DNA from: an uncultured Bacilli bacterium | GTDB taxonomy: Bacteria > Bacillota_I > Bacilli_A > RF39 > UBA660 | Assembly (NCBI GenBank): GCA_944332265.1 | Contig: CALVJQ010000001.1 | Span: 1 to 64,000, forward strand | Reading direction: 5' to 3' | Length of the DNA: 64,000 nt | Shown: piece by piece, positions 10,131-27,246 of the stretch | Numbering within the stretch: position 1 is the first letter of the stretch | Layout of the letters: every line of letters begins with the position of its first letter | Position numbers and translations under genes: made by a program | Notes under the pieces: generated by a model | Databases searched by the model: none | Seen by the model: the letters and a program-made list of their open reading frames with translations, nothing else | What the model was told of the DNA's origin: nothing

Positions 10131-11729
10131 TTAATTACTTTTTAAAGATAAAGTTGACATAACATCTACCAAATACATATCACATACTCCAAAACTAACA
10201 TCTGCTCCACTTTCATACTGAAATAATAAAACATCAGAGCCAACCATCATCGTACGATAATGAGTATCATATTTTTCTCCTTCAACTGCCACAGTATTCC
10301 ACTCAATACCATTAGATAAAACTTTATCAACGTCTTCACTAACCCCATTATAAAGCGCAATCTCTTCTATAGCATCTTCACTATTATCAAAACCATACAC
10401 TTTACTAAAAGTTAATGTACAAGTATTATTTTCTCCAACACTACTAGTATCTGTATAATGATATTTAAAAATACTTGATTCATCTTTAACAAAACCATTA
10501 GGTACAATAATACTAAAAGTATCTTCTATATCATATTCTTCAAATAAAATATTTCCATCAAACTTATATTTTTCTTCATTAACTACATTATCTTTATCTC
10601 TAGTTTCTTTAATTAAATCAGTTACCTTAGGTACTATATTAGCATAAGTTAAAAAAGATATGACAGATCCATAAACAATTAAAGATAAGAAAAACAACAA
10701 TATATTATTCTTCCCCTTTTTCTTACAAATCATGCTTAAATTAATTTGATTATCTTTACTATGTTTCTTCCTTATTTTTTTAACTCTTCTATTAACCGCT
10801 TTTATATAAAGAGGATTAGCTATTAAACTAATAACAATAGCTATAATAAAATAAGCAATTAATTGATATGGAAACGGTCCAAAATAGAAAATAAGTATAT
10901 TAATTAAACAAATAATTAGACCCATAAAATACATTTTACGATAAATAAAATAAGTTCCTCCAAATAAGAAAGCAGAAAATGAAAAAGGAGCCATACTTAT
11001 TTTAGTATACTTACTTCCAATATAATCAATTGTTAATTTATTCATATCAATTTCTGGTAAAGGGTCCTCTAAAACTATTTGATTTCCTTGTTGTAAAGCT
11101 TGTTGTTGATATTGTTCTACTTGTGTTTGCTCATTTAAAACAGGAGTATTCATATTAATGAAACGATTTTGATCTTCTACTTCCACATGATTATTCTGAT
11201 TTTCTACACTTACTCCTAAAGAAGAAGGACTAAGTGGTTGATTCATCATCCAATCACTTTCGCCATTATTATTCTGTTCAAAAGAAGGACTAGAATTATT
11301 AGTAACAACATTCACATTATTTTGACTATTATCAATCGTACTTTGAAATAAAGGACTATCTTGCAAAGTAAAATTACCTTCTTGATTATTTAACGTATTA
11401 TTATCATACAAAAAAGAATCATCAAGTATCTCTGGCTGTTCATCAGTATAAACAACACCATTAACTTGTTCCATTAATTCTCCTTGATAATTATTTAATG
11501 ATTTATTTATAACACTATTATTAACATTATTATTTTGACTTACCGAATTACTTCCTCCAACACCCCAACTTATAACTTTATTACTTACTTGATTACTTAC
11601 AGAAGAACCAACTGAACTAGCTGAACTATCTTCAAATAAATCCGGTGAAAAAAATCTATTTTTAACTGGTTGAGGTGCTTGATTTTGATTATTTAATTGT
11701 GAATTATAATTATTATTTTGTTCATTCAT
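10131..11729 (-). CDS. Asn/Gln-rich membrane protein with DUF2628-like helices and C-terminal sensor-like domain
   Basis: Residues 1-225 are Asn/Gln/Ser-rich and probably disordered. Around residues 240-310 a DUF2628-like block (APFSFSAFLFGGTYFIYRKM, then two or three helices) follows, then one further helix near 345-365. The last 150 residues are extracytoplasmic. That tail resembles the tails of the zinc-ribbon proteins at 15444 and 16576: two conserved Cys, a central Gly-Ile-Glu-Trp segment and a closing Ser-Leu. A promoter-like pair lies at 11750-11778. Function unknown. Confidence 0.7.
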   Translation of the reverse strand: MNEQNNNYNSQLNNQNQAPQPVKNRFFSPDLFEDSSASSVGSSVSNQVSNKVISWGVGGSNSVSQNNNVNNSVINKSLNNYQGELMEQVNGVVYTDEQPEILDDSFLYDNNTLNNQEGNFTLQDSPLFQSTIDNSQNNVNVVTNNSSPSFEQNNNGESDWMMNQPLSPSSLGVSVENQNNHVEVEDQNRFINMNTPVLNEQTQVEQYQQQALQQGNQIVLEDPLPEIDMNKLTIDYIGSKYTKISMAPFSFSAFLFGGTYFIYRKMYFMGLIICLINILIFYFGPFPYQLIAYFIIAIVISLIANPLYIKAVNRRVKKIRKKHSKDNQINLSMICKKKGKNNILLFFLSLIVYGSVISFLTYANIVPKVTDLIKETRDKDNVVNEEKYKFDGNILFEEYDIEDTFSIIVPNGFVKDESSIFKYHYTDTSSVGENNTCTLTFSKVYGFDNSEDAIEEIALYNGVSEDVDKVLSNGIEWNTVAVEGEKYDTHYRTMMVGSDVLLFQYESGADVSFGVCDMYLVDVMSTLSLKSN

Positions 11730-11948: not shown

Positions 11949-12033
11949 TGGTGCGAGTGAAGGGACTTGAACCCCCACTCCGTAAGGAACTAGATCCTAA
12001 GTCTAGCGCGTCTACCAATTTCGCCACACTCGC
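11949..12033 (-). tRNA. tRNA-Leu (anticodon TAG)
   Basis: An 85-base class II tRNA with acceptor GCGAGTG/CACTCGC, anticodon stem CTAGA/TCTAG around loop CTTAGGA (TAG), a long variable arm, T-loop GTTCAAGTC and an encoded CCA. It is transcribed behind the CAT-anticodon tRNA. Confidence 0.95.
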
Positions 12034-12042
12034 ATTATTAAG

Positions 12043-12119
12043 TGGTGGACCTCATAGGACTCGAACCTATGACCGCCCGGTTATGAGCCGGATGCTCTAA
12101 CCAACTGAGCTAGAGGTCC
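12043..12119 (-). tRNA. tRNA with CAT anticodon (tRNA-Ile2 or elongator Met)
   Basis: A 77-base cloverleaf with acceptor GGACCTC/GAGGTCC, D-arm AGCTCAGTTGGTTAGAGC, anticodon loop CTCATAA, T-loop GTTCGAGTC and encoded CCA. It is not the initiator, because it lacks the three G:C pairs of the initiator anticodon stem. The acceptor resembles the Bacilli tRNA-Ile whose CAT is modified to lysidine, as I remember it, but elongator Met cannot be ruled out by eye. Confidence 0.9.
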
Positions 12120-12179: not shown

Positions 12180-12932
12180 TTAATTTACAACCATAATAGT
12201 AAAAAAGACAATTAATAAAACAAAAACTACATCAACAAAAACCACATATCCCTTATTATCTAATTCTTTACCGCATAATTTAGCAACAAATTTAAATAAA
12301 GCATAAAAAAGATTAAAAACAAAAAAACCTACTATCGATACGGTTAAACAGATATTAAATATATTTAAACTAGTTAAATTATCAAAAGCTTCTAAACTAA
12401 AACTAATACTACTTACCATTCCAATACAAATAGCAATAAAAATAGCAATAATAGTAACAATATCAATTATATTTCGATCATAACGATTCTTTAAATCCTT
12501 AACATTATTATCTAATTTAGCAAAATCTTCATTACTAGAATCAAAAACTTGTTTTAATAAACGAATTTTAAAGCCATCACTTATCATTTCTTTAGTACTA
12601 ATATTAGCTTTTTCAATTCGATCCATAGCATCATAATAATTATACATACTAACTAAATCTTCTCTTCTAACATCCATCTCAATTGATTTTAACATATTAT
12701 CATAAATATTATCTTCTATTAAAATAGATTCACAATAAAAACAAATCTTCTTTAAGTTACTCGTAAACATCCCATTATCATTCTTATAATATTCATAAAT
12801 AAATCTTTCCCGATTATCATTATCCTTTAAAAAATATAAAAGATCAAAAGCAACAATAAAACAAACCATATTAGTTCCATTGCCCCCATTTTCTAACCTT
12901 TTAATTTTCTCAATTATATCATCAAGTTGCAT
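12180..12932 (-). CDS. Membrane protein of unknown function, 250 residues
   Basis: The first 150 residues are helical, charged and soluble. Three hydrophobic helices follow at about 158-180, 190-216 and 228-249, so the protein is probably tail-anchored in the membrane with a cytoplasmic N-domain. GAGGTGATGGT precedes the ATG. It is the most downstream member of the unknown-gene cluster spanning 12.2-20.8 kb. No motif is recognised. Confidence 0.65.
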   Translation of the reverse strand: MQLDDIIEKIKRLENGGNGTNMVCFIVAFDLLYFLKDNDNRERFIYEYYKNDNGMFTSNLKKICFYCESILIEDNIYDNMLKSIEMDVRREDLVSMYNYYDAMDRIEKANISTKEMISDGFKIRLLKQVFDSSNEDFAKLDNNVKDLKNRYDRNIIDIVTIIAIFIAICIGMVSSISFSLEAFDNLTSLNIFNICLTVSIVGFFVFNLFYALFKFVAKLCGKELDNKGYVVFVDVVFVLLIVFFTIMVVN

Positions 12933-12999
12933 ACCATCACCTCTTATAAGAAAAGTATATCATAAAACATCAAAAAAAGGCACTAATAGAGTGCCTTTC

Positions 13000-13248
13000 T
13001 TATAATAACATTGCTAAATCTTCTTTCATATAAATAATATACATAAACATTAAATTATAATAATCTTCTTCAAATAACAAATCTTTATTTTTTATATAAT
13101 CAGAACTATTTAATTTATCAATATCAACATTTTTCTTTTCACATAAATTTTCAATTGCTATTAAAGTATCAGCTATTTCTTTAAGTAAAATTTCTCTTTT
13201 TTCTTTTAAAGATAAAGTTTTAAAACTATTAGTATATTCTTCTAACAT
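13000..13248 (-). CDS. Small hypothetical protein, 82 residues
   Basis: An acidic, helical, cytoplasmic protein. Its ATG has AGGTGATAG upstream, and that ribosome binding site overlaps the stop of the 618-residue gene before it, indicating cotranscription and probable coupling. No domain is recognised. It may work with the larger neighbour. Confidence 0.65.
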   Translation of the reverse strand: MLEEYTNSFKTLSLKEKREILLKEIADTLIAIENLCEKKNVDIDKLNSSDYIKNKDLLFEEDYYNLMFMYIIYMKEDLAMLL

Positions 13249-13256
13249 TCTATCAC

Positions 13257-15113
13257 CTACAATAATCTTCTTTTAATTTTATGATAATCTAATAGCCTCA
13301 TCCATTTACTATTTTCATTAAATTTATTCCTTATTTTCAAAAAATCATTATAACCATTTTTATTAGCATCATTATATTTTTCTTTAATAAACAAACATTT
13401 TTCATTAAAATATCCTAAACAAATATCTTTATATTTATTTAATAAATCTTCTTGATTAGCATTTTTTAACTTCATATTCCTATAAATTGCTTTTGTAACA
13501 AGTTCTTGAGCTGCTATTAATAATTGTTCTCTTTCATAACTTTCTTGTACTTGAACTTCATCAAAAAAACATAAATTCTCAAAATTATAATTTCTAATTT
13601 TTATTTTCATATTTTCATACAATTCAACTATATCAGAAGTACTTATATCATGAATCATTACATTTAAATCATAATTTCTTGTATCATAATCTCCAATTTC
13701 ATCACGTGATTTTAACTCAGTAATACAATACTCTTCAATAAAATGAATTCTTCGCCCATTTACTTTAGTTTTTATACTTTTCATCGTTGGAATTGGTCCA
13801 TGATATCCAAGCTGTGTTTTCTTCTGATTAAGTTCAATCTCAAAATTATCTTTAAAAGTCTGATTTTTTTCTTTAATTATCTCTAAGAACTCATCCTTAC
13901 TCTTTTCATATAAAGAAAGCAAATAAAAAGGATTATATAAGTCATAAACTTTCTTAATTAACGCACTACGAACATCATTATTTCTTTTTAATAAAGGGGA
14001 ATGACTAGCATCATACATTACACGTTCAAAAATTTGATCTTCTAAATCATGAGCCAAACTATATAAAGAAATAGCTCGCTCAACACAATTACTAATCGTC
14101 CATTCTACATCATGTTTATTTTGATATCTACTATCAAAAAATGAATTTATTAATAACTCTCTAAATTTAGTAATATAAGAATCTTCGGCAAAAGAAACCG
14201 GTTCAAATTTTCCATTAACATAAGCATCCATCAAAGTTTCTTTTTCTTTTATAAAATCATCCGTTAAACTCTTAAATGTTTCAAAGGAAATATCGTTATT
14301 TTCATTAAACTGTCCTCTTAGACTCTTATCATCCTTCATTCGATTATAAACTTCATCAAAATGTAAATTAACCATTTCTTTAATCGTACCATCATTTAAA
14401 ATAAACTTCTTATGATAAGCAATCTGCATAATATCACAAACAACTTCATAATCATCAGTTGTTTTTAATATCTCTTCAATCCCAACTAAATAATTATTAT
14501 ATTTAATTAATTGTTTATTTATACGTTCAAAAAACTTATCATAACCCTCATTTATATAAGGTTTAACTGCTAATAGTTCTTCACTTCTTTCAATAAACCT
14601 CATAAATAACTTACGATTATCGCTTTCTTTTAATAAATAAACAAAATATTCTAATTTCGTCTTTCCTTTAGCTTCATTACGTATTTTCTTTTTTTCTAAA
14701 GAACTATACTTAGGAACAGCATAAGAAGAATTTTCTAATTCAGAAGGAGTTTTATTATCTAAACGATAATCATCATAAAAAGAACAACTTATTATAAAAG
14801 GCATATCTTCTAATTTATCAGTACACATTTCAACACAAGACTTATATAATAAAAAATAATATTCAAACATCGCTTTATTTAAATTATATATTTCATCTAA
14901 TTGTTCTCTTATTCTCTTATTATTTCTCTCAAGTTTAAGTTTATACAATTCTAAATCTCTTTTTGAAGTCTTACGTACTTCCATAGTAAGATCACGAATC
15001 CTCTTAATATTTCTTTCTACACTAGCATAAGAAATATTATCATTTTCTTTATAGATAAATTCATCATAAAATAATTTAAATGCCGAAAACTTTTTCTTTA
15101 CTTTTTTAGCCAT
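13257..15113 (-). CDS. Large hypothetical cytoplasmic protein, 618 residues
   Basis: A helical, charged protein without signal or membrane segments. The N-terminal 150 residues include a Lys/Arg/Glu-rich stretch likely to form a coiled coil. No NTP-binding or catalytic motif is visible. I chose the ATG of MAKKVKKK at 15113 because AGGTG lies six bases upstream; a GTG three codons earlier overlaps that site. It lies one base after the stop of the small coiled-coil gene and is followed by the 82-residue gene, forming a tight three-gene unit. Function unknown. Confidence 0.7.
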   Translation of the reverse strand: MAKKVKKKFSAFKLFYDEFIYKENDNISYASVERNIKRIRDLTMEVRKTSKRDLELYKLKLERNNKRIREQLDEIYNLNKAMFEYYFLLYKSCVEMCTDKLEDMPFIISCSFYDDYRLDNKTPSELENSSYAVPKYSSLEKKKIRNEAKGKTKLEYFVYLLKESDNRKLFMRFIERSEELLAVKPYINEGYDKFFERINKQLIKYNNYLVGIEEILKTTDDYEVVCDIMQIAYHKKFILNDGTIKEMVNLHFDEVYNRMKDDKSLRGQFNENNDISFETFKSLTDDFIKEKETLMDAYVNGKFEPVSFAEDSYITKFRELLINSFFDSRYQNKHDVEWTISNCVERAISLYSLAHDLEDQIFERVMYDASHSPLLKRNNDVRSALIKKVYDLYNPFYLLSLYEKSKDEFLEIIKEKNQTFKDNFEIELNQKKTQLGYHGPIPTMKSIKTKVNGRRIHFIEEYCITELKSRDEIGDYDTRNYDLNVMIHDISTSDIVELYENMKIKIRNYNFENLCFFDEVQVQESYEREQLLIAAQELVTKAIYRNMKLKNANQEDLLNKYKDICLGYFNEKCLFIKEKYNDANKNGYNDFLKIRNKFNENSKWMRLLDYHKIKRRLL

Positions 15114-15114
15114 C

Positions 15115-15372
15115 TTATTCACCTACTAATTCTTCATATTCTTGTTTTAATCTATTTAACTTGTCATATATTTTAGGTGTTTCTAATAAATTAGCAATTA
15201 TCTGATCAATATAAGAAATCTGCATATCTAATAAATTCTGTTTCTTTTCTTGTAAAGCCGCTTCTTCTAATTTATTAAGCGAATACAATTTGTAAATATC
15301 TTTTTCTAAAGCATCATATTTATCTTCAAGCTGTGCACGTCTCTTTTTTAATTCATCTACACTTATATTCAC
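15115..15372 (-). CDS. Small coiled-coil protein, 85 residues
   Basis: Almost entirely heptad-like helix (VDELKKRRAQLEDKYDALEK onwards), with no Cys and no membrane segment. I chose the GTG before Asn-Ile-Ser-Val because GGGG lies eight bases upstream; an ATG twelve codons earlier has no such site. It is the first gene of a unit with the 618- and 82-residue proteins. It could be an oligomerisation partner for the large protein, but this is inference. Confidence 0.6.
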   Translation of the reverse strand: MNISVDELKKRRAQLEDKYDALEKDIYKLYSLNKLEEAALQEKKQNLLDMQISYIDQIIANLLETPKIYDKLNRLKQEYEELVGE

Positions 15373-15424
15373 ACTATCATCCCCTACTATACTATTATAT
15401 AATAACATATTTTTAAATTTTAAA

Positions 15425-15445
15425 AAAGATAGTATTACTATCTTT
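15425..15445 (-). terminator. Terminator of the zinc-ribbon gene at 15444
   Basis: Perfect 9-bp stem (15437-15445 with 15425-15433), 3-base loop, with a T run (15427-15422) on the minus strand. The stop codon is partly in the stem. Confidence 0.75.
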
Positions 15446-16565
15446 AATCAAAAGCTAAAGTTTCTATTAACTGATCAAACCCTGAAGAACATTCATTATC
15501 ATTTCTTGTATTACTATATATAATATTATAAAAACTTCCTTTATAAACAATTGAAACATATTTAAATTTTACATTAGGTGAATACCCGCCAGTTCCAGCT
15601 GCATTTTTTTCAAGTTCCATAATTGATAAAGAATGCCACATATTATCATTAATTGTCATATCTTCAGTTATTGAAGTATAACCTTTTTCTTCAGTAAAAT
15701 CATTTTTTATTTGTTCAAAATACTTATCTACATAGTCAGAAACATCATTTGTATAACCATAGCTAATTCTAATTGAACAACTATCCCCTTTTGTATAATA
15801 TTTAGAATAAGTATCATCAGTTTTCAATACAAAATTTTCATCAATCGAATAATTTAATCCCCCAAAATTAACATTTCTATCATGATTAGGTTTTATATAA
15901 GTAAAATAAATATACCCCATTCCACAAAGAAATAAAATAAAACATACTGTATTAACAACAAAACTTATATTAAGAGAGAACTTCTTACTTACCTTATCTT
16001 TATACCCAGAAACATCATTATTACTATTAGTTAAATTATCTCCCCAATTTATTTGAGGCTTTTCTTCTTTAACTTCTGGTGGGAACAAAGGAGGCTTTTC
16101 TCCAACGTTTTGTGAAATATTCTGTCCCATAAAATTATTAGTTTCTCTATTAGTTACAACTTTTTCATTGTCTTTATTCATTCTCATAGCTTCTTCAGCA
16201 TTTATCTCATCTTTGCTGCGAAATCTTGAATCACCAGAAAATATTTTTTCCAAAGCAGTACGTTCATCATATTGCATTGAATTTAAACTATTCATCTGGT
16301 CTTTATAAAAATCTGCTGAAGAAGAATTATTAGTAAAAGCTCCCGTATTATTATTTCCATTACTAAATACATCATCAACTTTTGCAGAAATATTTTCCAC
16401 GTTATTAAAAACGTTATCTTGACCCCTAGTAACAGTAGCTCCTATTTGCGTATCAAATACATCTCCAAAATTAGTTATATTACTCTTTTGCAAATCACTA
16501 CCGCACATATAGCATTTTTTCTTAGAGTCATCCAAAATAGTTCCACATTTTGGACATTTTTTCAT
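15444..16565 (-). CDS. Zinc-ribbon membrane-anchored protein A
   Basis: A 373-residue protein with an N-terminal zinc ribbon (CPKCG...CYMCG, residues 4-22), a long Asn/Ser-rich linker to about residue 195, one transmembrane helix (about 200-222) and an extracytoplasmic domain of about 145 residues. That domain shares a pattern with the next protein upstream (16576) and with the tail of 10131: an opening Gly-Leu-Tyr-like strand, Cys-Ser-Ile, Asn-Asp-x-x-Trp, a Lys-Tyr-Val-Ser strand, and Asn-Glu-Cys near the end. GGAGGGG precedes the ATG. Function unknown; a ribbon inside and a domain outside suggest signalling or scaffolding. Confidence 0.75.
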   Translation of the reverse strand: MKKCPKCGTILDDSKKKCYMCGSDLQKSNITNFGDVFDTQIGATVTRGQDNVFNNVENISAKVDDVFSNGNNNTGAFTNNSSSADFYKDQMNSLNSMQYDERTALEKIFSGDSRFRSKDEINAEEAMRMNKDNEKVVTNRETNNFMGQNISQNVGEKPPLFPPEVKEEKPQINWGDNLTNSNNDVSGYKDKVSKKFSLNISFVVNTVCFILFLCGMGYIYFTYIKPNHDRNVNFGGLNYSIDENFVLKTDDTYSKYYTKGDSCSIRISYGYTNDVSDYVDKYFEQIKNDFTEEKGYTSITEDMTINDNMWHSLSIMELEKNAAGTGGYSPNVKFKYVSIVYKGSFYNIIYSNTRNDNECSSGFDQLIETLAFD

Positions 16566-16575
16566 TTAACCCCTC

Positions 16576-17421
16576 CTAAGACTTTTTAATAAATTTAAGT
16601 GACTTAGCAAAATTATCAAGAGAAGCACTACAATGCTCATCATTACTATTATTAACTAACTCTATATCATAATAAAATCCATCATACATTGAAGACAAAT
16701 ATTTATAACGTAATAAAGTAGGATCACTATTTTCCTTTTCTTTATAAAAGATATTTAATGCATACCAAGTTGTATCATTTAAAATAAATTCATTCTCACT
16801 AGATGTATAAACATCTAATTTATCAATTACATTGGCATTAGAATCAAGTTCTGGTGCCAATGCTGTTTTACGCTCAGCAAAAAACTCTTTTACATGATTA
16901 CCTGTAGTCGTCGTATCAGTAGTAACCGTAATTGAACAAGCACTTCCTTTATCATCACTCTTACTATAAGTTAAAGTATTATTACTTTGAGAAGTTTGTT
17001 TTAAAGTATCATCAACAGCATAATACAAATTACCTATAATAGGTTGTATTCCTTCATCAGCACTTTTAGATACATAATAACGATAACCAACAAAACCTAT
17101 AATTCCAAGTACTAATAATAATAAACAAGCTTGAATTAAAGTCTTATGTTCATTATATTTATCAAAAATATCTTTATCTTCATCTTTTAATGGTGCTAGT
17201 TCTGCTTTTTTATAATCATTAAAATTAGATACAGGTCGTTGAAAATTAGTCCCAATACTAGGATTTCTAAAATCATTACCACTACCAAAATTAGCATCTC
17301 TATTAGGTGAAGAGAAGTTATTAAAACCTTGATTAGGAACATACTCATTAACATTAGTTCCACACATTTGACAAACTGTCTTTCCCTCTTCCATAAAAGC
17401 TCCACATTTAGGACATCTCAT
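16576..17421 (-). CDS. Zinc-ribbon membrane-anchored protein B (paralogue of A)
   Basis: A 281-residue protein with the same architecture as the gene ten bases downstream: CPKCG...CQMCG ribbon at residues 3-21, an Asn-rich linker, a helix at about 95-113, and an extracytoplasmic domain. The tail shows Ala-Cys-Ser-Ile, Leu-Asn-Asp-Thr-Thr-Trp, Arg-Tyr-Lys-Tyr-Leu-Ser-Ser and Asp-Glu-His-Cys in the same order as protein A. The two are tandem duplicates in one operon. AGAGGTGAT precedes the ATG. Confidence 0.75.
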   Translation of the reverse strand: MRCPKCGAFMEEGKTVCQMCGTNVNEYVPNQGFNNFSSPNRDANFGSGNDFRNPSIGTNFQRPVSNFNDYKKAELAPLKDEDKDIFDKYNEHKTLIQACLLLLVLGIIGFVGYRYYVSKSADEGIQPIIGNLYYAVDDTLKQTSQSNNTLTYSKSDDKGSACSITVTTDTTTTGNHVKEFFAERKTALAPELDSNANVIDKLDVYTSSENEFILNDTTWYALNIFYKEKENSDPTLLRYKYLSSMYDGFYYDIELVNNSNDEHCSASLDNFAKSLKFIKKS

Positions 17422-17431
17422 ATTATCACCT

Positions 17432-17674
17432 CTATAATTGCCTTTCTAACATATTCGAACGATAATCTAATATCACATTTAAATCTAATAATACCCTTTT
17501 ATCATGGGATTCTTTGGCTAAACAAGATAAATAATCCTTTACCTTATTATAATACTCCAAAAATAAATCTTTATTATCAGATTTAACTAAAAGGACTAAA
17601 TATCTAAAAATAAAATCATTACGAAAGTTATTATTATTTTTCAATCTTACCAATCCTTCCCATTTCAAATTCAT
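17432..17674 (-). CDS. C-terminal piece of a probably frameshifted gene
   Basis: This 80-codon frame overlaps the preceding gene by 41 bases, and its ATG has no ribosome binding site. The protein looks natural only from about Asn-Asn-Asn-Asn-Phe-Arg onward. Removing one A from the A5 run near 17640 would join the upstream product directly into this frame as Lys-Ile-Glu-Asn-Asn-Asn-Asn-Phe. I therefore read it as the 3' part of a single gene of about 170-175 codons. It could instead be made by ribosomal frameshifting, or be a separate gene. Confidence 0.5.
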   Translation of the reverse strand: MNLKWEGLVRLKNNNNFRNDFIFRYLVLLVKSDNKDLFLEYYNKVKDYLSCLAKESHDKRVLLDLNVILDYRSNMLERQL

Positions 17675-17954
17675 CTAAAACTAAATTAACTAATTCCAAT
17701 AATAAATCACAAGCAATATTTGTACTACTAACTTTAATATCCTGTCTATTTAAAACAGCATAAACTAATTTATTTAAAAACAAATATGGATTATCTTCAA
17801 ACAATATAGATAAATGAAATTCATAAGGCTCAACTGCATATAATTTAGATTTAATCAAATCTTTATTAGCTAAAGTAAAACTAGATTCTATAATATCAAT
17901 ATTTTCCTTAAGTCGTTTAACTAATTCTTTTAAAAATTCTTCTTTAAACCTCAT
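17634..17954 (-). CDS. N-terminal piece of a probably frameshifted gene, hypothetical
   Basis: A 106-residue helical protein of unknown function. I chose the ATG of MRFKEEF at 17954 because AGGA lies nine bases upstream; ATGs three and nine codons earlier lack this. The frame closes at TAA immediately after an A5 run, and a one-base shift there continues into the frame at 17432-17636. It sits in the 12.2-20.8 kb unknown cluster, upstream of the zinc-ribbon pair. Confidence 0.55.
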   Translation of the reverse strand: MRFKEEFLKELVKRLKENIDIIESSFTLANKDLIKSKLYAVEPYEFHLSILFEDNPYLFLNKLVYAVLNRQDIKVSSTNIACDLLLELVNLVLDEFEMGRIGKIEK

Positions 17955-18006
17955 ATATATCATTCCTATATCATAACCCATACTATAACAAAATTATAAC
18001 ACATAA

Positions 18007-18029
18007 AAAAGAAGATATCATCTTCTTTT
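18007..18029 (-). terminator. Terminator of the 18032-19422 gene pair
   Basis: Perfect 10-bp stem (18020-18029 with 18007-18016) with a 3-base loop, just after the stop at 18032. Confidence 0.7.
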
Positions 18030-18031
18030 CT

Positions 18032-18349
18032 TTATTTTTCATTTTTTTCATCAAAATATTTTAACATCACATAACAAACAATACTTATAACCAAACACTT
18101 AAAAATTACTTCATTAGTAAAAAACTCACTCATTAGTATCCCTAAAAGACATATAACTACACCAAAAATTATTCTTTCTAAATAAGCGATAACTACCCCT
18201 ATTTTACCTTTCTTATCACGTACCAATTCTAGATGATAATCAAAACTAGTCTTTTTACTAACATGTGTTAATAAATATTTAAAATATAATATTATAGGTA
18301 AAAAAGTAAGACACAAACCTAAAACTGTAATTATTCCCTCTACAATCAT
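18032..18349 (-). CDS. Small membrane protein, 105 residues
   Basis: Three hydrophobic segments (about residues 4-26, 55-73 and 80-97) separated by a charged loop. The ATG shares a base with the stop of the upstream gene (TAATG), which indicates translational coupling. Function unknown, but it is clearly the operon partner of the anchored protein at 18349-19422. Confidence 0.7.
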   Translation of the reverse strand: MIVEGIITVLGLCLTFLPIILYFKYLLTHVSKKTSFDYHLELVRDKKGKIGVVIAYLERIIFGVVICLLGILMSEFFTNEVIFKCLVISIVCYVMLKYFDEKNEK

Positions 18350-19422
18350 TAACTTTCCTCCATAATCTTATTTATATACTTACAACCTTCACCCTTATAG
18401 CCTATCTTTGAAAATACTGGTTTAGTAAATGATGATTGATTATATAAATAATCTATATTAAATTCATAATAAGCAATCTCTTTTTTTTCTTCTTCTGTAA
18501 ATTCAGTAGAACAAAATTCCTTATCATATCCAACAATCATCTTAAAATTTCTTGATGAATAATCAAAAGTAATATATATACTATTATCTGTAGTTAAAGA
18601 AACATTATCTATTGTTATTGGTAACATACTATCAGAATTATATACAATTCCATCTTCACCTAAAACTTTTAAAGTATAAGCATATTTACTATTATCCGAA
18701 CTCATCTTCTTTTCAATAACAGCTAAATACTTACCAAAAGCATATAAATCAGGTAAATAATCTAAATCTTTTATAGTCGAAGTATACAAATTAATTCCAT
18801 CAACTCCACTATTAAAAGATATTGTATAACTATCATCAAAAGTATTAACATTAAAATTCATTCTTAACCCAGAAGAAACACCATCTATTTTTAAATCAGT
18901 CAAATTATAATAATATCCTTCTTGCTCTGTTTCCTTTAATAATAACTGATATGTATCAGGTTGCACCGATAACATATTAGCAATCCCATCAATTCCTGGA
19001 ACTATCCTCAATACTGAAGAGTCTTTAACATATACACGATCATTATAATTTATTCTATATGTTTTAGCACTTCCATCTTCAATAATATCAAGCTCACTAA
19101 CTTTGCCTTCACCTTTCAAAAATGTTCCCATACATGAACTACGATACAAATAATAATCATCATCCATAATCAAAATATAATTAGATATTTTAGATACAGA
19201 ACATCCTCTAAAAATATACTTAGATCCATTTAAATCATCATCAGATACATATACACCATTATAATTATCTATTATCTTATTATCTTCTGTAATTGTATCA
19301 ATAATTTCTGATATTGGATTTTCTTTACCCGTTATAAAATAATAGCCACCAAAAGCCACAAGACAAACAAGCAACACAAAAAACAAAAATTTTAAATTCC
19401 TTTTAAATCTTGACTTATTCAT
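18349..19422 (-). CDS. Membrane-anchored extracytoplasmic protein of unknown function
   Basis: A 357-residue protein with a basic start (MNKSRFKRNLK), one transmembrane helix at about residues 10-30, and the rest outside the membrane, rich in Asp, Asn, Tyr and Ser. Four cysteines at about 74, 97, 306 and 348 could form disulphides. No lipobox follows the helix. AGGAGAATAG precedes the ATG. It is coupled to the small membrane protein downstream. Function unknown. Confidence 0.7.
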   Translation of the reverse strand: MNKSRFKRNLKFLFFVLLVCLVAFGGYYFITGKENPISEIIDTITEDNKIIDNYNGVYVSDDDLNGSKYIFRGCSVSKISNYILIMDDDYYLYRSSCMGTFLKGEGKVSELDIIEDGSAKTYRINYNDRVYVKDSSVLRIVPGIDGIANMLSVQPDTYQLLLKETEQEGYYYNLTDLKIDGVSSGLRMNFNVNTFDDSYTISFNSGVDGINLYTSTIKDLDYLPDLYAFGKYLAVIEKKMSSDNSKYAYTLKVLGEDGIVYNSDSMLPITIDNVSLTTDNSIYITFDYSSRNFKMIVGYDKEFCSTEFTEEEKKEIAYYEFNIDYLYNQSSFTKPVFSKIGYKGEGCKYINKIMEES

Positions 19423-19479
19423 TTGCTATTCTCCTATACTATAAGAATTATAACATAAGTTAAGTATTTTAACAAAAAA

Positions 19480-19502
19480 AAGATTAATAAAAAATTAATC
19501 TT
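19480..19502 (-). terminator. Terminator of the gene at 19504-20757
   Basis: Stem AAGATTAAT/ATTAATCTT with a 5-base loop, then a T tract on the minus strand, directly after the stop. Confidence 0.75.
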
Positions 19503-19503
19503 C

Positions 19504-20757
19504 CTATAAACCTTTTTTTAATATTTCATTTTCACTACGTATATTAATATCTCTACATATTTCCTCTTTTAAATCAGCATATATTCTTTGTCTTTCATCT
19601 TCACTAAAATCTAATAAAGTTAAATCATCTAAATTTTCTAAATTACCAAAAATATCTTTTTCTAACTGTGCTTCATCTAAACCACGTTTACTACATACTT
19701 CTAAATAACTCTGTATTTTACCAATTTCCAAATCTAAAGTTTCTAATTTACTTTTTAACTTATTTATTTTATCTGTATAATAATTTAAAATTCTACTAAA
19801 TAAAGTCTTAACAAAACTAGATACATCAATTCCTTTAGAAACACCATTATAATACTTATCAATATACATTTTAAAACTACTATCAACATGTAAAATATCT
19901 TCCGTATTAATACTACTTAAATACTTAACTACTCCTGAAAGCTTAAATAAATCTCTAAAAGTTTCATATAAACTATTTTTACGTCCCCAAATATTTAATA
20001 ATGGATTTTTACTAATTAAATTACTCTGATATTCCAAAGCTTCTTCAGTAAATCCTTTTAATAAATTAACTTCCTGCATTAATTCTTGTTCCGTCTCAAC
20101 TCTTTCTTCTAATATACGTTGTAATTCTATCTGCTTCTTTGATAAATCAATCATTGTTGTATTATGTTCATTAAAAACAAAGCCATTAATAAACTCTTCA
20201 CGTAAAGCCATTAATTTAAACCATTCATAAAAAGAATAATCAATCCCATAAAAATTAGCAATTGCAAAATTTAATTGTTCCGCATTACAACTATCAATAA
20301 TTAGTAATTTTTTTTCTAAATCATTATTACCGTCTTTTTTAGCTTTTTTTAAATCCGCTTCAATAACCTCATTTTTAAATAAGTTTTTCCTATCTTCTAA
20401 TGAAAAACTACCATAAAAAGCAAATTTTCTAACTGATTCAAAAATCTTTTTTAAATCTTCCACTTTTTTTAAATATTTTGGTTTTATTAACCTAGCCATT
20501 ATCTCTCCATGACTATTTATCCAAGCATATTCTTTTACAAAAAGAACATCATCTTTATCTAAAGTATATTTTGAATCAACAAATTCATCAATACATACCT
20601 TCTTTAATCTATTATATTCTTCTAAAGTTACTAAACCAGCTTTATAATCTGCCTCCAAAAAACTTTTTAATCTATCAAATTTTTGTTTAATTTGAAATAA
20701 GTGATTACAACAATTATTTAAAAAATCTAATGCCGAATCATAAATTGTTTTATTCAT
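19504..20757 (-). CDS. Hypothetical cytoplasmic coiled-coil protein, 417 residues
   Basis: A helical, charged protein without membrane segments. Likely coiled coils lie around residues 195-240 and in the Lys/Leu-rich region near 325-350. I chose the ATG of MNKTIYDS at 20757 because GGGGGG lies five bases upstream; earlier codons lack this. Its composition resembles that of the 618-residue protein at 13257, but I see no clear alignment. It has its own terminator and is the most upstream member of the unknown cluster. Confidence 0.7.
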   Translation of the reverse strand: MNKTIYDSALDFLNNCCNHLFQIKQKFDRLKSFLEADYKAGLVTLEEYNRLKKVCIDEFVDSKYTLDKDDVLFVKEYAWINSHGEIMARLIKPKYLKKVEDLKKIFESVRKFAFYGSFSLEDRKNLFKNEVIEADLKKAKKDGNNDLEKKLLIIDSCNAEQLNFAIANFYGIDYSFYEWFKLMALREEFINGFVFNEHNTTMIDLSKKQIELQRILEERVETEQELMQEVNLLKGFTEEALEYQSNLISKNPLLNIWGRKNSLYETFRDLFKLSGVVKYLSSINTEDILHVDSSFKMYIDKYYNGVSKGIDVSSFVKTLFSRILNYYTDKINKLKSKLETLDLEIGKIQSYLEVCSKRGLDEAQLEKDIFGNLENLDDLTLLDFSEDERQRIYADLKEEICRDINIRSENEILKKGL

Positions 20758-20820
20758 AAAGTCCCCCCTTAAATACGCAAGATATCTTACCATATTTATA
20801 TAAAATTAGCAAAAATAACT

Positions 20821-20850
20821 AAAAAAATGTTAAGATTTTATCTTAACATT
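20821..20850 (-). terminator. Terminator of the GH25 gene
   Basis: Stem of 10-11 bp (20840-20850 with 20826-20836), 3-base loop and seven T residues. The stop codon edge lies in the stem. Confidence 0.8.
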
Positions 20851-22321
20851 AACTAGTAATAGATCCTTGATATATATTATCTCTAATAACATCATAAAAA
20901 TCTACATCATTTACATAATAATATTCCCCATTATATAAGACTTTTACATATGAAGAATTAACCCCAACTATTCTTAACTCTTCTAAAGCCGAAATCTTCT
21001 TATACTCATTATTTAACAAAAAGTTATAAGGTTTATATAATAAAGTTATTTCTCTATTACACCTAACATTTAAATCAACTAAATCAAAATTAACAGGTGC
21101 CAAATCCATTACAAAACAATTAACATCATTTATATAAAAAGTATTACCATTATATAAAACTCTAATAAACTTATCACTCATTCCTGTAACAACAACATAA
21201 GTACCTTTTTCTAGTATTCCGGCTTTATTAGGTAAAGTCGTGTATGGACTACTACGAAGAGTAACATCTTTAGTTAAAGTCGTATTCATATTCATTTCTT
21301 TAAATGTTACCTTATCCAAATTACCAGTATTTGTAATTCCATTAACCGTAGAAGCTTTTGTAACATCATTAGTTACACTAAAATAAGCAACATTCATATC
21401 AACTCTACCACTTATACCAGGAACACTACCACTACTAGTATATTGCCACATATGATAATTTCCTTTATACGTTACCTTATCATTATATTGTGCTAACCAA
21501 ATACGTTGTCCCTTAAACTTAGCCGTATCAAAATATTTAGTAAAAGCATTAGCATAACTATAAATCATTGGTGTATATCCTTGCTTTTTAATATAATCAC
21601 AAAAAACCAATGCATTATTAGTCATTGTTGAATAACTAACTCCCTTTAATCTATTCTTATTAAAAATCTCAATATCTATAGCTACAGGATAAGTAATATC
21701 ATAATCCTTTATTACATTAACAATCCACTTAGCTTCTTCTAAAGCTTCAGTCTTATTCTTAGCCATTGAAAAGAAATACACCCCAACATTAATGTTATTA
21801 GCAATAGCTCCTTTAATATTATTTAAAAACTGATTATCCATTACAATAGTACCCGAATCTAACCTACGAAACCCACATCTAATCATTGCAAAAGAAATAC
21901 CTGATTGTTTAACCTTCTTCCAATTAATCTTGCCTTGCCATGTTGATACATCTATTCCTAAACTTGTTTCATTAGTTTCATACTTCTTTACTGCCTTTTT
22001 AGCTGTTGTTGGTTTACTAACTCCCTTATCCGGATTATCTCTTACTAACTTACTAGGATCTTCCTTATCATCAGCTGGTGCAACAATAATCTTATTAAAA
22101 TCCAAATTAGAATCAATACTTTCTAAAACAGTATCATTATTTTCTTCAATATCATTTAAAAAAGCCCATTCACTTTCAAAATTATTAACTTCTCTACTAT
22201 TTTTTATATCTTCATTACTAATTACATTACTATAACTAATTTTATATGAATAAAAAGAGAGAACTCCTATTAATAACACTAAAGAAAAAGTTCCAACTTT
22301 AAATATTATACTTTTCTTCAT
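20849..22321 (-). CDS. GH25 muramidase (lysozyme) with two SH3-like repeats
   Basis: A 490-residue surface or secreted enzyme that would cleave the MurNAc-GlcNAc bond of peptidoglycan. After an N-terminal membrane segment (about residues 8-27) and a linker, residues 120-315 form a GH25 domain: LGIDVSTWQG (Asp124), the acid pair AIDIE (Asp216, Glu218), MWQY and RVDMN. Residues 330-480 hold two SH3-like repeats, each ending in LYNG-x-x-(F/Y)YVND or a close variant. I chose the ATG of MKKSII because AGGAG lies eight bases upstream. There is no sorting motif; the N-terminal segment may remain as an anchor. spoIVB lies just upstream on the same strand. Confidence 0.92.
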   Translation of the reverse strand: MKKSIIFKVGTFSLVLLIGVLSFYSYKISYSNVISNEDIKNSREVNNFESEWAFLNDIEENNDTVLESIDSNLDFNKIIVAPADDKEDPSKLVRDNPDKGVSKPTTAKKAVKKYETNETSLGIDVSTWQGKINWKKVKQSGISFAMIRCGFRRLDSGTIVMDNQFLNNIKGAIANNINVGVYFFSMAKNKTEALEEAKWIVNVIKDYDITYPVAIDIEIFNKNRLKGVSYSTMTNNALVFCDYIKKQGYTPMIYSYANAFTKYFDTAKFKGQRIWLAQYNDKVTYKGNYHMWQYTSSGSVPGISGRVDMNVAYFSVTNDVTKASTVNGITNTGNLDKVTFKEMNMNTTLTKDVTLRSSPYTTLPNKAGILEKGTYVVVTGMSDKFIRVLYNGNTFYINDVNCFVMDLAPVNFDLVDLNVRCNREITLLYKPYNFLLNNEYKKISALEELRIVGVNSSYVKVLYNGEYYYVNDVDFYDVIRDNIYQGSITS

Positions 22322-22380
22322 TCTACATACTCCTATTTTAGATAATAACAAAGAACTATAATACTTGCAATAAAACAGCT

Positions 22381-22407
22381 AAAAAAAAAGACTTTTAACG
22401 TAAAGTC
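22381..22407 (-). terminator. Terminator of spoIVB
   Basis: Stem GACTTT/AAAGTC with a 6-base loop and nine T residues on the minus strand, immediately after the stop at 22408. Confidence 0.7.
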
Positions 22408-23370
22408 CTATTGTAATTTATCTCCCTCTTCTAACATTGTAACAATACTAATTCCATACCCACGATCAACATCATCTACCAAAACTCGTGTAACTGCTCC
22501 AATTATCATATCATTTTGAATAATTGGTGAACCACTCATCCCTTGAACTATTCCTCCACTCATTTTCAATAAATCTGTATCTACTACCTCAAAATAAATA
22601 TTTTTATCATAATTATCTTTATCAATATTTAATATTTCTATTTCATACTTCACAACTTCATTATCCAAATTTGTAGTATATATATAAGCTTCCCCTAAAG
22701 AAACATCATCTAAAGTTCCTACTTTCATTAACTTTTTATTTTTAACTTCATCTGCTTTGCCAAATATACCATAATTAGAATTAACTTCTATTGTTCCAAA
22801 TCTACTATTTTTATCAATATCTGCATTCTTACTTCCTGGGCTTCCATTAACACTTCTAGTAAAACTTACAACCTCTGCATCATAGCTATAGCCAGTTTTA
22901 ACATCCATTAACTGATTAGTTCCACTAACATTTAAAGAATGACCTAAAACACCATAAATACCAGTTTCAGGATCAATATAAGATAACGTTCCTACTCCTA
23001 ATATATTACCTTTAACATATAAACCTGTTCGATAAGAACCTAAGACTAATTTAAGATCTAAATTAGTTTCATATTCTTTATCATTTCTCTCATAAGTAAT
23101 ATTAACTTTATTATTTTTCATATTTTCTTCAATCAATTTAACTAAATCATTAGAACTTTCTACTTCATAATTATTTACTTCTAAAATGCTATCCCCAATT
23201 CTAAGTTCTCTATTTATATAAGTTCCATCAACTTTATAAAAACCTACAACAACAACTCCCTTACTATTAACTTCAATCCCTAAAGTATCACCACCTGGAA
23301 TTATATAATCACTATAAGCAAGTACTAATAAAGGGAAAAATAATAATATAATAAATAAAACCTTCTTCAT
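22408..23370 (-). CDS. spoIVB: SpoIVB-type serine peptidase (S55) with PDZ domain
   Basis: In spore formers SpoIVB is secreted across the inner forespore membrane and triggers cleavage of pro-sigma-K. This 320-residue protein has a signal-like N-terminus (residues 1-18), a PDZ domain (about 28-105) and an S55 domain. The S55 domain shows VGTLSYIDP, YGVLGHS (His144), GIVQGMSGSPIIQ (nucleophile Ser) and DVDRGYGI. I chose the ATG of MKKVLF because GGTGA lies upstream. No other sporulation gene is in the window, so the role may not be sporulation. It is about 25% shorter than the Bacillus protein as I remember it. Confidence 0.88.
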   Translation of the reverse strand: MKKVLFIILLFFPLLVLAYSDYIIPGGDTLGIEVNSKGVVVVGFYKVDGTYINRELRIGDSILEVNNYEVESSNDLVKLIEENMKNNKVNITYERNDKEYETNLDLKLVLGSYRTGLYVKGNILGVGTLSYIDPETGIYGVLGHSLNVSGTNQLMDVKTGYSYDAEVVSFTRSVNGSPGSKNADIDKNSRFGTIEVNSNYGIFGKADEVKNKKLMKVGTLDDVSLGEAYIYTTNLDNEVVKYEIEILNIDKDNYDKNIYFEVVDTDLLKMSGGIVQGMSGSPIIQNDMIIGAVTRVLVDDVDRGYGISIVTMLEEGDKLQ

Positions 23371-23412
23371 CAAAATCACCATATTATTATAATTCCCATA
23401 TAATTACAAAAT

Positions 23413-24019: not shown

Positions 24020-25474
24020 TTATACTACAACAATTTTATATATGCTATTATCTACAACAACATAATCACCAACATTATCAATATATTTACCTTCCAATGT
24101 ATCTAATATTTCTAAATTCTTATCATACATTGTCAAATTTAAAAGATTATCTTCTTCTTTTATAAAACCTGTATACAACGTTTTATCAAATAAAATAGTT
24201 CCTAAATCATAATCTCTTTCTTGCCCATCATTATCAATATATACCTTAGTCAATTTATTTTCATTATCATAATAAATTACTTGATAAAGATTATTACCTA
24301 CTAATAAAATATCTTCTACTTTACTAACATTATTCAACTTATATTCTAAAATTGTTTCAAAATAATTATCATATATTTTTATTTTATAATCATCATCATA
24401 AGTATATACCACATTTTCACAACCAAAACCAATTTGTTCTATTTCCTTTTGAATATCTTCACCATTTATAATATAAAAATCATGTTTATCATATTCCGTC
24501 TTATTTACATCTTCTAAATAATTATTTACGACCACAATCTTTCCATTTACTTTATATAGCATTACACTCCTAACACTACCTCTTAAATCAAAAGGAATTA
24601 AACTATCATAATCCATTTTAAATCCCGTTAAATTATCATATTCTTCATTATATAAAGCCATTTTATTCTTTGTATTTACTACTATATAATAATTACCAAA
24701 ATCATAAATAGCTTTATAACTACTTTTTAATAACTTTTCCCCATGTTCATCAATAATCCCATACTTAGAATCATCTAATACTATAAATGAATTATTATAT
24801 GTATTTAAAATATTATCATACTTATAATCTATTACAACTTCTCCAAATAAATCAATAACTCCCATTTTTTCTTCTTTATTCTTTACAACTAAATACTCAT
24901 CATTATAAATATAATAGAAACTATCATTTATTTGATCTCCCATTAATGATACATCATCAATAATCTTCATTCCTATATTATCTAAGCTATAAATATATAA
25001 ATCATCATTAACAACACTAACAAAACAAACTATATATTCTTGATCTATTCCCTTATATATTACAGGTTTTATATAAGAAACATTATCTAAGTTATATAAA
25101 GTTTCCATCTTTTCACCATCAAAAAGATAAACATTTAACTTATTATCAATATTATTATATATTATATACTCATCATTTTTTGTCTTATAGATATTTTCAT
25201 AATATATATTTTCATTTCCTTTATATATTTCCTGCCCATTATTATCAATAATAACATTAATAATATTCTTCTCATAAGAACCAATAAAATACTTATCATC
25301 TATTGTTCTTAACTCATAATCTGATGAATATATTTGATTAAACTTAACTTGTAACTTATCAACCTTATCTTCCTTACTTGATAATAAAGTAGACACTATA
25401 AAAACAACTACAAAAATAAGTAAAACCATTATTACAATTATCACAAACATTTGATTAATTTTTTCTTTTTCCAT
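24020..25474 (-). CDS. Membrane-anchored WG-repeat protein 1
   Basis: The 484-residue protein has one N-terminal transmembrane helix (about 10-30). The outside part is a beta-rich repeat region. Two units match the WG (KWG) repeat pattern: KMGVIDLFGEVVIDYKYDNI and KYGIIDEHGEKLLKSSYKAI; weaker units precede and follow. WG repeats occur in surface and scaffold proteins without enzymatic activity. It is followed in the genome by a similar, larger protein upstream (25549) and by a third at the right edge. Confidence 0.72.
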   Translation of the reverse strand: MEKEKINQMFVIIVIMVLLIFVVVFIVSTLLSSKEDKVDKLQVKFNQIYSSDYELRTIDDKYFIGSYEKNIINVIIDNNGQEIYKGNENIYYENIYKTKNDEYIIYNNIDNKLNVYLFDGEKMETLYNLDNVSYIKPVIYKGIDQEYIVCFVSVVNDDLYIYSLDNIGMKIIDDVSLMGDQINDSFYYIYNDEYLVVKNKEEKMGVIDLFGEVVIDYKYDNILNTYNNSFIVLDDSKYGIIDEHGEKLLKSSYKAIYDFGNYYIVVNTKNKMALYNEEYDNLTGFKMDYDSLIPFDLRGSVRSVMLYKVNGKIVVVNNYLEDVNKTEYDKHDFYIINGEDIQKEIEQIGFGCENVVYTYDDDYKIKIYDNYFETILEYKLNNVSKVEDILLVGNNLYQVIYYDNENKLTKVYIDNDGQERDYDLGTILFDKTLYTGFIKEEDNLLNLTMYDKNLEILDTLEGKYIDNVGDYVVVDNSIYKIVVV

Positions 25475-25548: not shown

Positions 25549-27246
25549 TTAAATTTCTTCTATATACAAGTATTCTGTATCAGTCGCATAATAGAAAGCA
25601 TTTTCATCTAATTCAACAAAATAATTATTACTATCTTCAAAAACATCTACATCTATAAAGACAATCTCTTTATCTGAAGAAGAATAAATCATCTTTTTAT
25701 CTTTCTTATCATAATTAATTGTTATTCCATTAATCAATAAAGAAAAATCTTTAATCTCATTTATTTCTTTTCCATTTTCATAATCAAAATATATTGAACT
25801 ATCTAATTCTATTTCAATTGTATTTCCATTAATTAATTCTATTTTAGGTACTAAAGAAAAATCATAATTACTTAAATCTATCTTATACATTTCTTCTAAA
25901 GAAGAATTATATATAGTAACTATTCTATCTATATTATCATAAGCATAGATTAAACCATTATCTTTATTAACTTCAAACTTATTAGCAGTTACACTTTCAT
26001 ATTTACCATTTTTATCTATTATATAAGTTAAACTCTTTGCATATTTTATATTATTTTCTAATTCTAAATTATTAGTAACTAAAACATACTTATCATTTAC
26101 TTTATAAGAATTGATAGTATTCCAATCAGTATAACTAAATGGTTTACCATCTGTTTTCTCTTGATAATCAAAAACAAAATCAGTAACTAATTTAAAATTA
26201 TTATCCATTATAGCCATCTTTTTATTTTTAGCAACAACATAATAAGAATCATATCTATCAATAAAGTCATATTCAAAATTAACTAACTTTTTAAGTTTAT
26301 TAGTAATAATTCCAGTCTTACCATCTTTAACTGCTATATAATTATTACCATCCGTATATAAACCTTCATATTGTGGTCTTATAATCGTATTTCCACTCTT
26401 TAATTCTAAAAGTCCATATAATAAATCACTATATGTTTTACTAGTTCCAACAATAATATTATCTTTATTATATGTAATAATAGCTTCAAATGGTTTTGTA
26501 ATCTTTTCATCACCTAATATTTGATAATTATCAAGTTCATATTCTTCACCATCTAAAGTATATAAATACGTTGTATTTTGTTCATTATTTTCATCATCAT
26601 AACTATATTTAGTTCCTGTAAATCCCAAAGTTATTAAATCATCATTATCTTCATAAATAATAGGAACATAATATACAGCTGTTTCAGATAATTCTTTATC
26701 TAATTTAAATTCTTTATCTTCCAATTTATATATTGATAAATAATTTTGATTATTCTCAATATCATTTATAATTAAATAAAAATTATTATTAAAATCTTCA
26801 ATATAATAGCTATATTCTGCTTCACCTTCAAATAATATATTCGTATTCATATCCATTACTTTATAAATATAATTATCATCATATTCTATTAAATATTCAT
26901 CATTTAAAACATCTAATTTATGTGTATCAGCTACAATATATTTATAAGACTTATATTTATCTACAACTTTCTCTTCTTTTAAAGATGGTTTATTACCCAA
27001 ATCTTTATATACATATGTATACCAATACCAACCGCCTATAATAATAACCAATATTATAACAGCTAATATAATAAAAGCTTTAAACTCATCCCAAAATCTT
27101 TTCTTTTTTTCTAGTTTCACATCTTCTTGAATATCTTTTACTTGAATAGTCTTTTCTTTAACTACTTTTTTAACTTTCTTTTCTTTCTTAGGAGGGATAA
27201 TCTTTTTCTTTTCTTCTTTTACTACCTTATCTTCTTTTTTCGCCAT
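25549..27246 (-). CDS. Membrane-anchored WG-repeat protein 2
   Basis: A 565-residue protein with a Lys/Glu-rich cytoplasmic start (residues 1-50), one transmembrane helix (about 53-75), and a beta-rich exterior. Repeat-like units include LYGLLELKSGNTIIRPQYEG, KTGIITNKLKKLVNFEYDFI and a third near KKMAIMDNNFKLVTDFVFDY. The arrangement matches the protein encoded just downstream, so the two are probably paralogues. GAGGTGTCGAT precedes the ATG. It lies behind xseA-xseB, separated by a weak hairpin. Confidence 0.72.
   Translation of the reverse strand: MAKKEDKVVKEEKKKIIPPKKEKKVKKVVKEKTIQVKDIQEDVKLEKKKRFWDEFKAFIILAVIILVIIIGGWYWYTYVYKDLGNKPSLKEEKVVDKYKSYKYIVADTHKLDVLNDEYLIEYDDNYIYKVMDMNTNILFEGEAEYSYYIEDFNNNFYLIINDIENNQNYLSIYKLEDKEFKLDKELSETAVYYVPIIYEDNDDLITLGFTGTKYSYDDENNEQNTTYLYTLDGEEYELDNYQILGDEKITKPFEAIITYNKDNIIVGTSKTYSDLLYGLLELKSGNTIIRPQYEGLYTDGNNYIAVKDGKTGIITNKLKKLVNFEYDFIDRYDSYYVVAKNKKMAIMDNNFKLVTDFVFDYQEKTDGKPFSYTDWNTINSYKVNDKYVLVTNNLELENNIKYAKSLTYIIDKNGKYESVTANKFEVNKDNGLIYAYDNIDRIVTIYNSSLEEMYKIDLSNYDFSLVPKIELINGNTIEIELDSSIYFDYENGKEINEIKDFSLLINGITINYDKKDKKMIYSSSDKEIVFIDVDVFEDSNNYFVELDENAFYYATDTEYLYIEEI

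Follow-up and report, generated by a model that had tools for sequence, protein, structure and literature searches.

A vertically inherited gene block of the genus Candidatus Coprovivens places putative envelope proteins beside an orphan homologue of Panacea-paired membrane proteins

The window, by which we mean the whole 64,000-nucleotide stretch of DNA analysed here, comes from a genome bin of 1.42 Mb and carries between positions 12180 and 20793 eleven open reading frames (ORFs), all on the minus strand, with two tRNA genes downstream. The features, with genes named by their lower coordinate, are as follows.

19504..20793, minus strand: helical soluble protein, outside the conserved block (26% mean identity among 5 genomes)
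18349..19422, minus strand: first gene of the block, predicted N-terminal membrane helix and extracytoplasmic part of about 320 aa (14/14 genomes)
18032..18349, minus strand: 105-aa membrane protein with about three predicted helices, TAATG-coupled to 18349 (13/14 genomes)
17634..17981, minus strand: soluble helical protein of 115 aa whose gene opens the second unit (8/14 genomes)
17432..17674, minus strand: 80-aa soluble protein, overlapping 17634 (8/14 genomes)
16576..17421, minus strand: zinc ribbon, one membrane helix and an ectodomain of predicted Mog1/PsbP/DcrB fold in which Cys162 and Cys264 are invariant (AlphaFold2, Foldseek)
15444..16565, minus strand: N-terminal zinc ribbon in the cytosol, then a disordered linker, a single membrane helix and an ectodomain with two invariant cysteines
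15115..15408, minus strand: 97-aa coiled-coil-like protein of the 13257 module (found in 7/14 genomes)
13257..15122, minus strand: soluble all-alpha protein of 550-620 aa (11/14 genomes; AlphaFold2)
13000..13248, minus strand: 82-aa helical soluble protein of the 13257 module (10/14 genomes; alignment)
12973..13001, minus strand: terminator-like hairpin between 13000 and 12180, then the extended -10 promoter TGATATACT for 12180 (intergenic regions of 14 genomes, motif counts)
12180..12932, minus strand: cytosolic helical part of about 150 aa and three predicted C-terminal membrane helices, own transcription unit (phrog_5763, hhalign)
11949..12119, minus strand: tRNA-Met(CAT) and tRNA-Leu(TAG), found downstream of the block as its constant neighbours

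A sequence-only reading had listed these ORFs, and their positions and overlaps were borne out by the ORF check. The TAATG coupling that it described at 18349 is present, with one base shared with 18032; the 15115 and 13257 ORFs overlap by 8 bases, and position 20757 is an internal ATG within the ORF 19504-20793. In pairwise comparison with the deposited genome of Candidatus Coprovivens excrementavium (G002), dN/dS was about 0.08-0.25 for all of the ORFs except 19504 (0.50/0.77 = 0.65), and mismatches were in surplus at third codon positions, which together indicate that the eleven ORFs are real genes and not chance reading frames. The statement that no gene here has a known function held for Pfam and NCBIfam, in which no model claims any of the products beyond zinc ribbons that score below threshold in 15444 and 16576. 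The 12180 protein does have relatives, in phrog_5763. The reported richness in membrane proteins was also recovered, with both single-pass and multi-pass proteins in the block. A sequence search of the PDB with the four main block profiles gave nothing useful.

The block proteins of G002 (locus L012) are mostly 69-92% identical to those of the window, and from this genus-level kinship we infer that the window organism belongs to Candidatus Coprovivens. This is a GTDB genus of the order RF39, family CAG-1000 (PMC8035907). Its members live in the gut and have small genomes. Our genus sample comprised 15 genomes, in 14 of which the block could be mapped by BLAST and profile searches; the fifteenth (G010, 65% complete) gave no block match. 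Across the stretch 12180-19422 the gene order is kept in 14/15 genomes, as 18349 - 18032 - (17634 - 17432) - 16576 - 15444 - (15115 - 13257 - 13000) - 12180 - tRNA-Met - tRNA-Leu, and the core genes 18349, 18032, 16576, 15444 and 12180 are adjacent in 14/14, with 18032 undetected in G008. The block lies directly upstream of the tRNA pair in every assembly whose contig extends that far (several end there), and while the flank on the 18349 side differs between species, the tRNA side is constant. Outside the genus, profile searches found no relatives of 12180 across 143-144 further genera in the family, none of 13257 across 76 further genera in the class, and only zinc-ribbon-type partial matches for 16576. 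In other genera, the neighbours of SpoIVB and of the tRNA pair are unrelated to the block genes at the profile level, so no concealed ancestral version of the block was found. The block is inherited vertically within Candidatus Coprovivens and appears in that genus only, in agreement with the earlier proposal that it is lineage-specific; its homologues are not scattered over unrelated loci, and no product matched a housekeeping family. A mobile-element or prophage origin of the whole block was rejected, as neither 13257 nor 12180 found a viral, phage or plasmid relative in a direct search.

The coiled-coil gene at 19.5 kb, which had been counted as a member of the cluster, does not belong to it: 19504 is present in only about 6/15 genomes, evolves fast, and is separated from 18349 by a terminator and a promoter. 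In G004 and G005, an undescribed helical protein of about 365 aa (L013:4747-5844 and L015:4110-5216) lies between the 19504-type and 18349-type genes, and its G004 copy has no Pfam match.

Beyond this boundary, a GH25 lysozyme and a SpoIVB-type S55 peptidase (20849-23382, minus strand) adjoin the block. A sporulation link through SpoIVB was considered and dropped: SpoIVB adjoins xseA/xseB in many genera of the family that have no block, and it was undetected in six genus members, five of which carry the block. Since both its xseA/xseB context and its presence are independent of the block, SpoIVB is a neighbour only. In other genera it also lies beside SpoIIM-like or amidase genes. Next to xseB/xseA lie two WG-repeat-type membrane-anchored paralogues (24020-25474 and 25549-27246, minus strand; hhalign 99.8%), a pair present in many genus genomes, and further away a surface protein that combines a thioester (TED) domain with SpaA-type prealbumin repeats (42063-43475, minus strand) is probably an adhesin. 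On the other side, an MvaI/BcnI-type restriction endonuclease in G001 (L076:7078-7836) directly adjoins the same tRNA-Met/Leu pair, which hints that the pair may be an insertion hot spot.

The block is transcribed as at least three units and not as one operon: 18349-18032, 17634-17432-16576-15444-15115-13257-13000, and 12180 alone, divided by conserved promoters. An extended -10 motif of the type TGnTAT(A/T)nT, searched within 70 bases upstream of each gene (background rate 3.4%), was found before 18349 in 12/13 genomes, before 17634 in 8/8, before 16576 in 4/6 of the genomes without 17634, and before 12180 in 14/14. In the same comparison the motif was found before 15115 in two of seven genomes and was not found before 18032, 17432, 15444, 13257 or 13000. 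In many genomes, terminator-like hairpins lie 5' of the promoters of 17634 and 12180, and in most they precede that of 18349; upstream of 17634, a terminator is followed by the promoter TGTTATAAT (8/8). Because a general consensus promoter scan by itself gave no excess over its shuffles, the promoter assignment is based on positional conservation. These internal promoters and terminators rule out a single operon of all eleven genes, and the notion of one complex of about eleven genes gives way to three transcription units, a separate 19504, and a solitary relative of Panacea-linked membrane proteins in 12180.

At the centre of the second unit, 16576 and 15444 are paralogues (hhalign 99.9%, E 7e-32, 174 columns) that both carry an N-terminal CX2C-X(10)-CX2C zinc motif ahead of one membrane span, with Cys 3, 6, 17 and 20 and Cys 4, 7, 18 and 21, respectively, invariant in 14 genomes. 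Zn_ribbon_3 was recovered for 16576 in 14/14 genomes, the window protein scoring below the curated cut-off. The 16576 ectodomain was modelled by AlphaFold2 with pLDDT >90 over most of residues 130-280, and in a Foldseek search of the PDB its best matches were PsbP, DcrB, LpqN and Mog1: 15 chains, mainly PsbP and also DcrB, reached E <= 1e-3 (down to 8e-6), with LpqN and Mog1 just above this cut-off. On this model, the ectodomain is predicted to have the Mog1p/PsbP-like alpha/beta fold shared by PsbP, DcrB, LpqN, MTC28 and Mog1, and homology assigns the 15444 ectodomain to the same fold. The likeness is at the fold level only, with about 10% identity and with target-normalised TM-scores of 0.5-0.6 for the best matches, and 16576 differs from these proteins in being membrane-tethered with a zinc ribbon. 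A DUF2628 protein encoded at 10131-11729 (minus strand), with counterparts on the downstream side of the tRNA pair in G002, G003 and G005, has 160 C-terminal residues weakly like the 15444 ectodomain (hhalign 27%, E 7e-4) and is possibly a third Mog1/PsbP-type paralogue.

The general plan of the two paralogues resembles that of zinc membrane proteins which serve cell-wall integrity in L. lactis, where Llmg_0524-0525-0526 includes two close-encoded membrane proteins with a cytosolic CX2C...CX2C N-terminus (PMC4628341). The comparison is one of plan; 16576 and 15444 differ in lying side by side as paralogues, in having an ectodomain of Mog1/PsbP type (on the model of 16576) and in being accompanied by 18349-, 18032- and 13257-type genes. 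The same order of zinc finger, single membrane span and outside part is seen in S. aureus TcaA, whose zinc finger is intracellular (PMC10328498), whereas the modelled 16576 ectodomain matches PsbP/DcrB/Mog1 proteins and no TcaA-family model appeared among the Pfam matches of 16576 at E up to 1. We take these likenesses of plan as a functional lead and not as membership. In the first unit, the 18349 protein has strictly conserved cysteines at 74 and 97; Cys 304 and 347 are likewise invariant in a 13-row alignment, and their status differs between the alignments because of one fragmented copy in G011.

Downstream of the paralogues, the genes at 13.0-15.4 kb, which had been proposed as a unit, do behave as one, being gained or lost together with 13257. 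The AlphaFold2 model of 13257 is all-helical and of moderate confidence (pLDDT 79, pTM 0.52), and a fold search with it gave no match in the PDB or BFVD. In G001, G012 and G013, 13257 is absent and a gap of 62-73 bases separates 15444 from 12180, so the rest of the block works without it. In the core-gene tree (98) as in the ValS tree (99; the G008 ValS was disregarded), G013 falls with G004, which has 13257; G012 is placed differently by the two trees, and the 13257 tree broadly follows the core-gene tree. Given these tree positions, the module would have been lost at least twice if ancestral.

The last gene, 12180, had been read as a tail-anchored protein; its three predicted C-terminal membrane helices make it multi-pass, and it carries a conserved 'IAIF...GMVS' helix. 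Among the core genes it is the best conserved (mean identity 69%, versus 34-43% for 18349, 16576 and 15444), and it encodes the sole such protein, in single copy, in 14/15 genomes. It matches phrog_5763 (E 1.8e-13), a family with sporadic members in other Bacilli, in phages and in satellite phages, two of whose bacterial members lie directly behind genes matching Pfam SocA_Panacea. A profile of ten Panacea-linked proteins found 34 viral loci. Among 40 family loci outside Coprovivens, a Panacea gene lies directly upstream in 35, or in 37 when a long ORF overlap is allowed; the Panacea-linked loci include all 34 viral ones, and of the three loci without Panacea, two are at or near record ends. 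A profile of these proteins finds 12180 in all Coprovivens genomes with the block, with E values of 1e-12 to 1e-21 that composition of the membrane region may inflate (bias of 7-27 bits, final scores of 43-73) and with clean controls: the next best unrelated ORF had E 0.08 and the reversed database gave 0 matches. The HMM matches are reciprocal, and hhalign of 12180 against the Panacea-linked family reached 99.1% (E 8e-19, 181 columns), compared with at most 6% for eleven other window families, membrane ones included. Anoctamin matches in the PDB (E 0.03) were judged to be chance.

These profile comparisons indicate that the membrane domain of 12180 is homologous to Panacea-paired membrane proteins and that 12180 is an orphan: no Panacea-like ORF was found in its 14 Coprovivens loci, and Panacea (PF13274) genes occur in only 6/15 genus genomes, away from this locus. 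Membrane-disrupting toxins are among those that Panacea partners neutralise (PMC8832971). The homology to PanT of PanAT and to phrog_5763 covers the coiled-coil-plus-membrane region, but 12180 differs in having no nearby Panacea gene, in being chromosomal, single-copy and strictly conserved in the genus, and in having its own promoter and an N-terminal part of about 100 aa conserved only within the genus. We do not claim PanT membership for 12180, whose toxicity is putative. Elsewhere in the genome that the window comes from (G000), a protein that combines an HTH with Panacea follows a 106-aa ORF (L142; contig 40, 934-1890) and probably forms with it a separate toxin-antitoxin pair.

The reading that we prefer, with a probability of roughly 40%, takes the locus as an envelope assembly specific to the genus, next to a captured membrane protein of toxin-like type, 12180. 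Starting from the anatomy of the three units, a joint mechanism may be proposed in which the outside domains would bind either an envelope ligand or one another, with the zinc ribbons serving as cytosolic structural or docking modules, by analogy with Llmg_0524/0526 and TcaA. The 12180 protein would be a captured membrane protein of toxin type, now under constitutive expression and forming or gating an element in the membrane, and its activity would be restrained or signalled by neighbouring proteins in place of an antitoxin; the 13257 module may serve as a lineage-variable cytosolic adaptor. A fuller history, that a Coprovivens ancestor captured a phage-derived membrane toxin which lost Panacea, gained a cytosolic domain and a promoter, and is now the membrane-gating part of an envelope machine controlled by the zinc-ribbon/Mog1-fold ectodomain proteins, is unlikely as a whole. 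Because 12180 is transcribed apart, its link to the other genes comes from constant adjacency in 14 genomes, and its separate promoter calls for caution about its cooperation with the rest; the tRNA pair shows the same constant adjacency, which counts against the joint reading, as does the lack of 13257 in three genomes. It is also conceivable, though somewhat unlikely, that the genes are co-located and independent: a TcaA/Llmg_0526-like wall-integrity operon pair (18349-18032, and 17634 to 13000), a separately acting, domesticated 12180 and the tRNAs, kept adjacent by vertical inheritance only. The promoter and terminator of each unit, the freely changing 18349-side flank next to a constant tRNA side, and the unequal rates of the genes would all fit, whereas the five core genes have stayed adjacent in every genome with the block (18032 undetected in one) despite the rearrangement on the 18349 side.

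Two further explanations take 12180 as an active toxin. In anti-phage abortive infection, which we regard as quite unlikely, it would be a membrane-permeabilising effector and the optional, fast-evolving 13257 module a changeable phage sensor. There is a precedent for this idea: membrane depolarisation is known for some membrane PanT and RosmerTA toxins, and phage defence for one RosmerTA pair (PMC8832971; PMC10440598). The Panacea-linked relatives of 12180 lie mainly in prophages and satellites, and the endonuclease beside the same tRNA pair in one genome also agrees with the idea. However, sporadic defence genes do not usually occupy one locus in practically every genus member with broadly congruent trees, most of the products belong to the envelope and face outwards, and genomes that lack 13257 still keep the block. 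PADLOC, in a scan of products other than 15444, gave sub-significant matches only (best E 0.02, for 15115 and 17634), so a known defence system was rejected. Very improbable is a solitary toxin-antitoxin pair, in which 12180 would still be a toxin and a small neighbour, such as 13000 or 18032, would take over the antitoxin role of Panacea. The homology to Panacea-paired proteins suggests such a pair, as does the position of 13000 as the closest upstream gene where present, but 13000 is missing in G008, G001, G012 and G013, all of which have 12180, a terminator and a promoter lie between the two genes, and the extreme conservation and single copy of 12180 are unlike mobile toxin-antitoxin pairs.

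To our knowledge, the domestication of toxin-antitoxin toxins for housekeeping has often been proposed and rarely shown with a clean case. Here, 12180 is antitoxin-free, single-copy and strongly constrained across a genus, while its relatives are almost always paired with Panacea. For RF39, in which most lineage-specific genes are without annotation, the locus provides concrete gene sets for the envelope.
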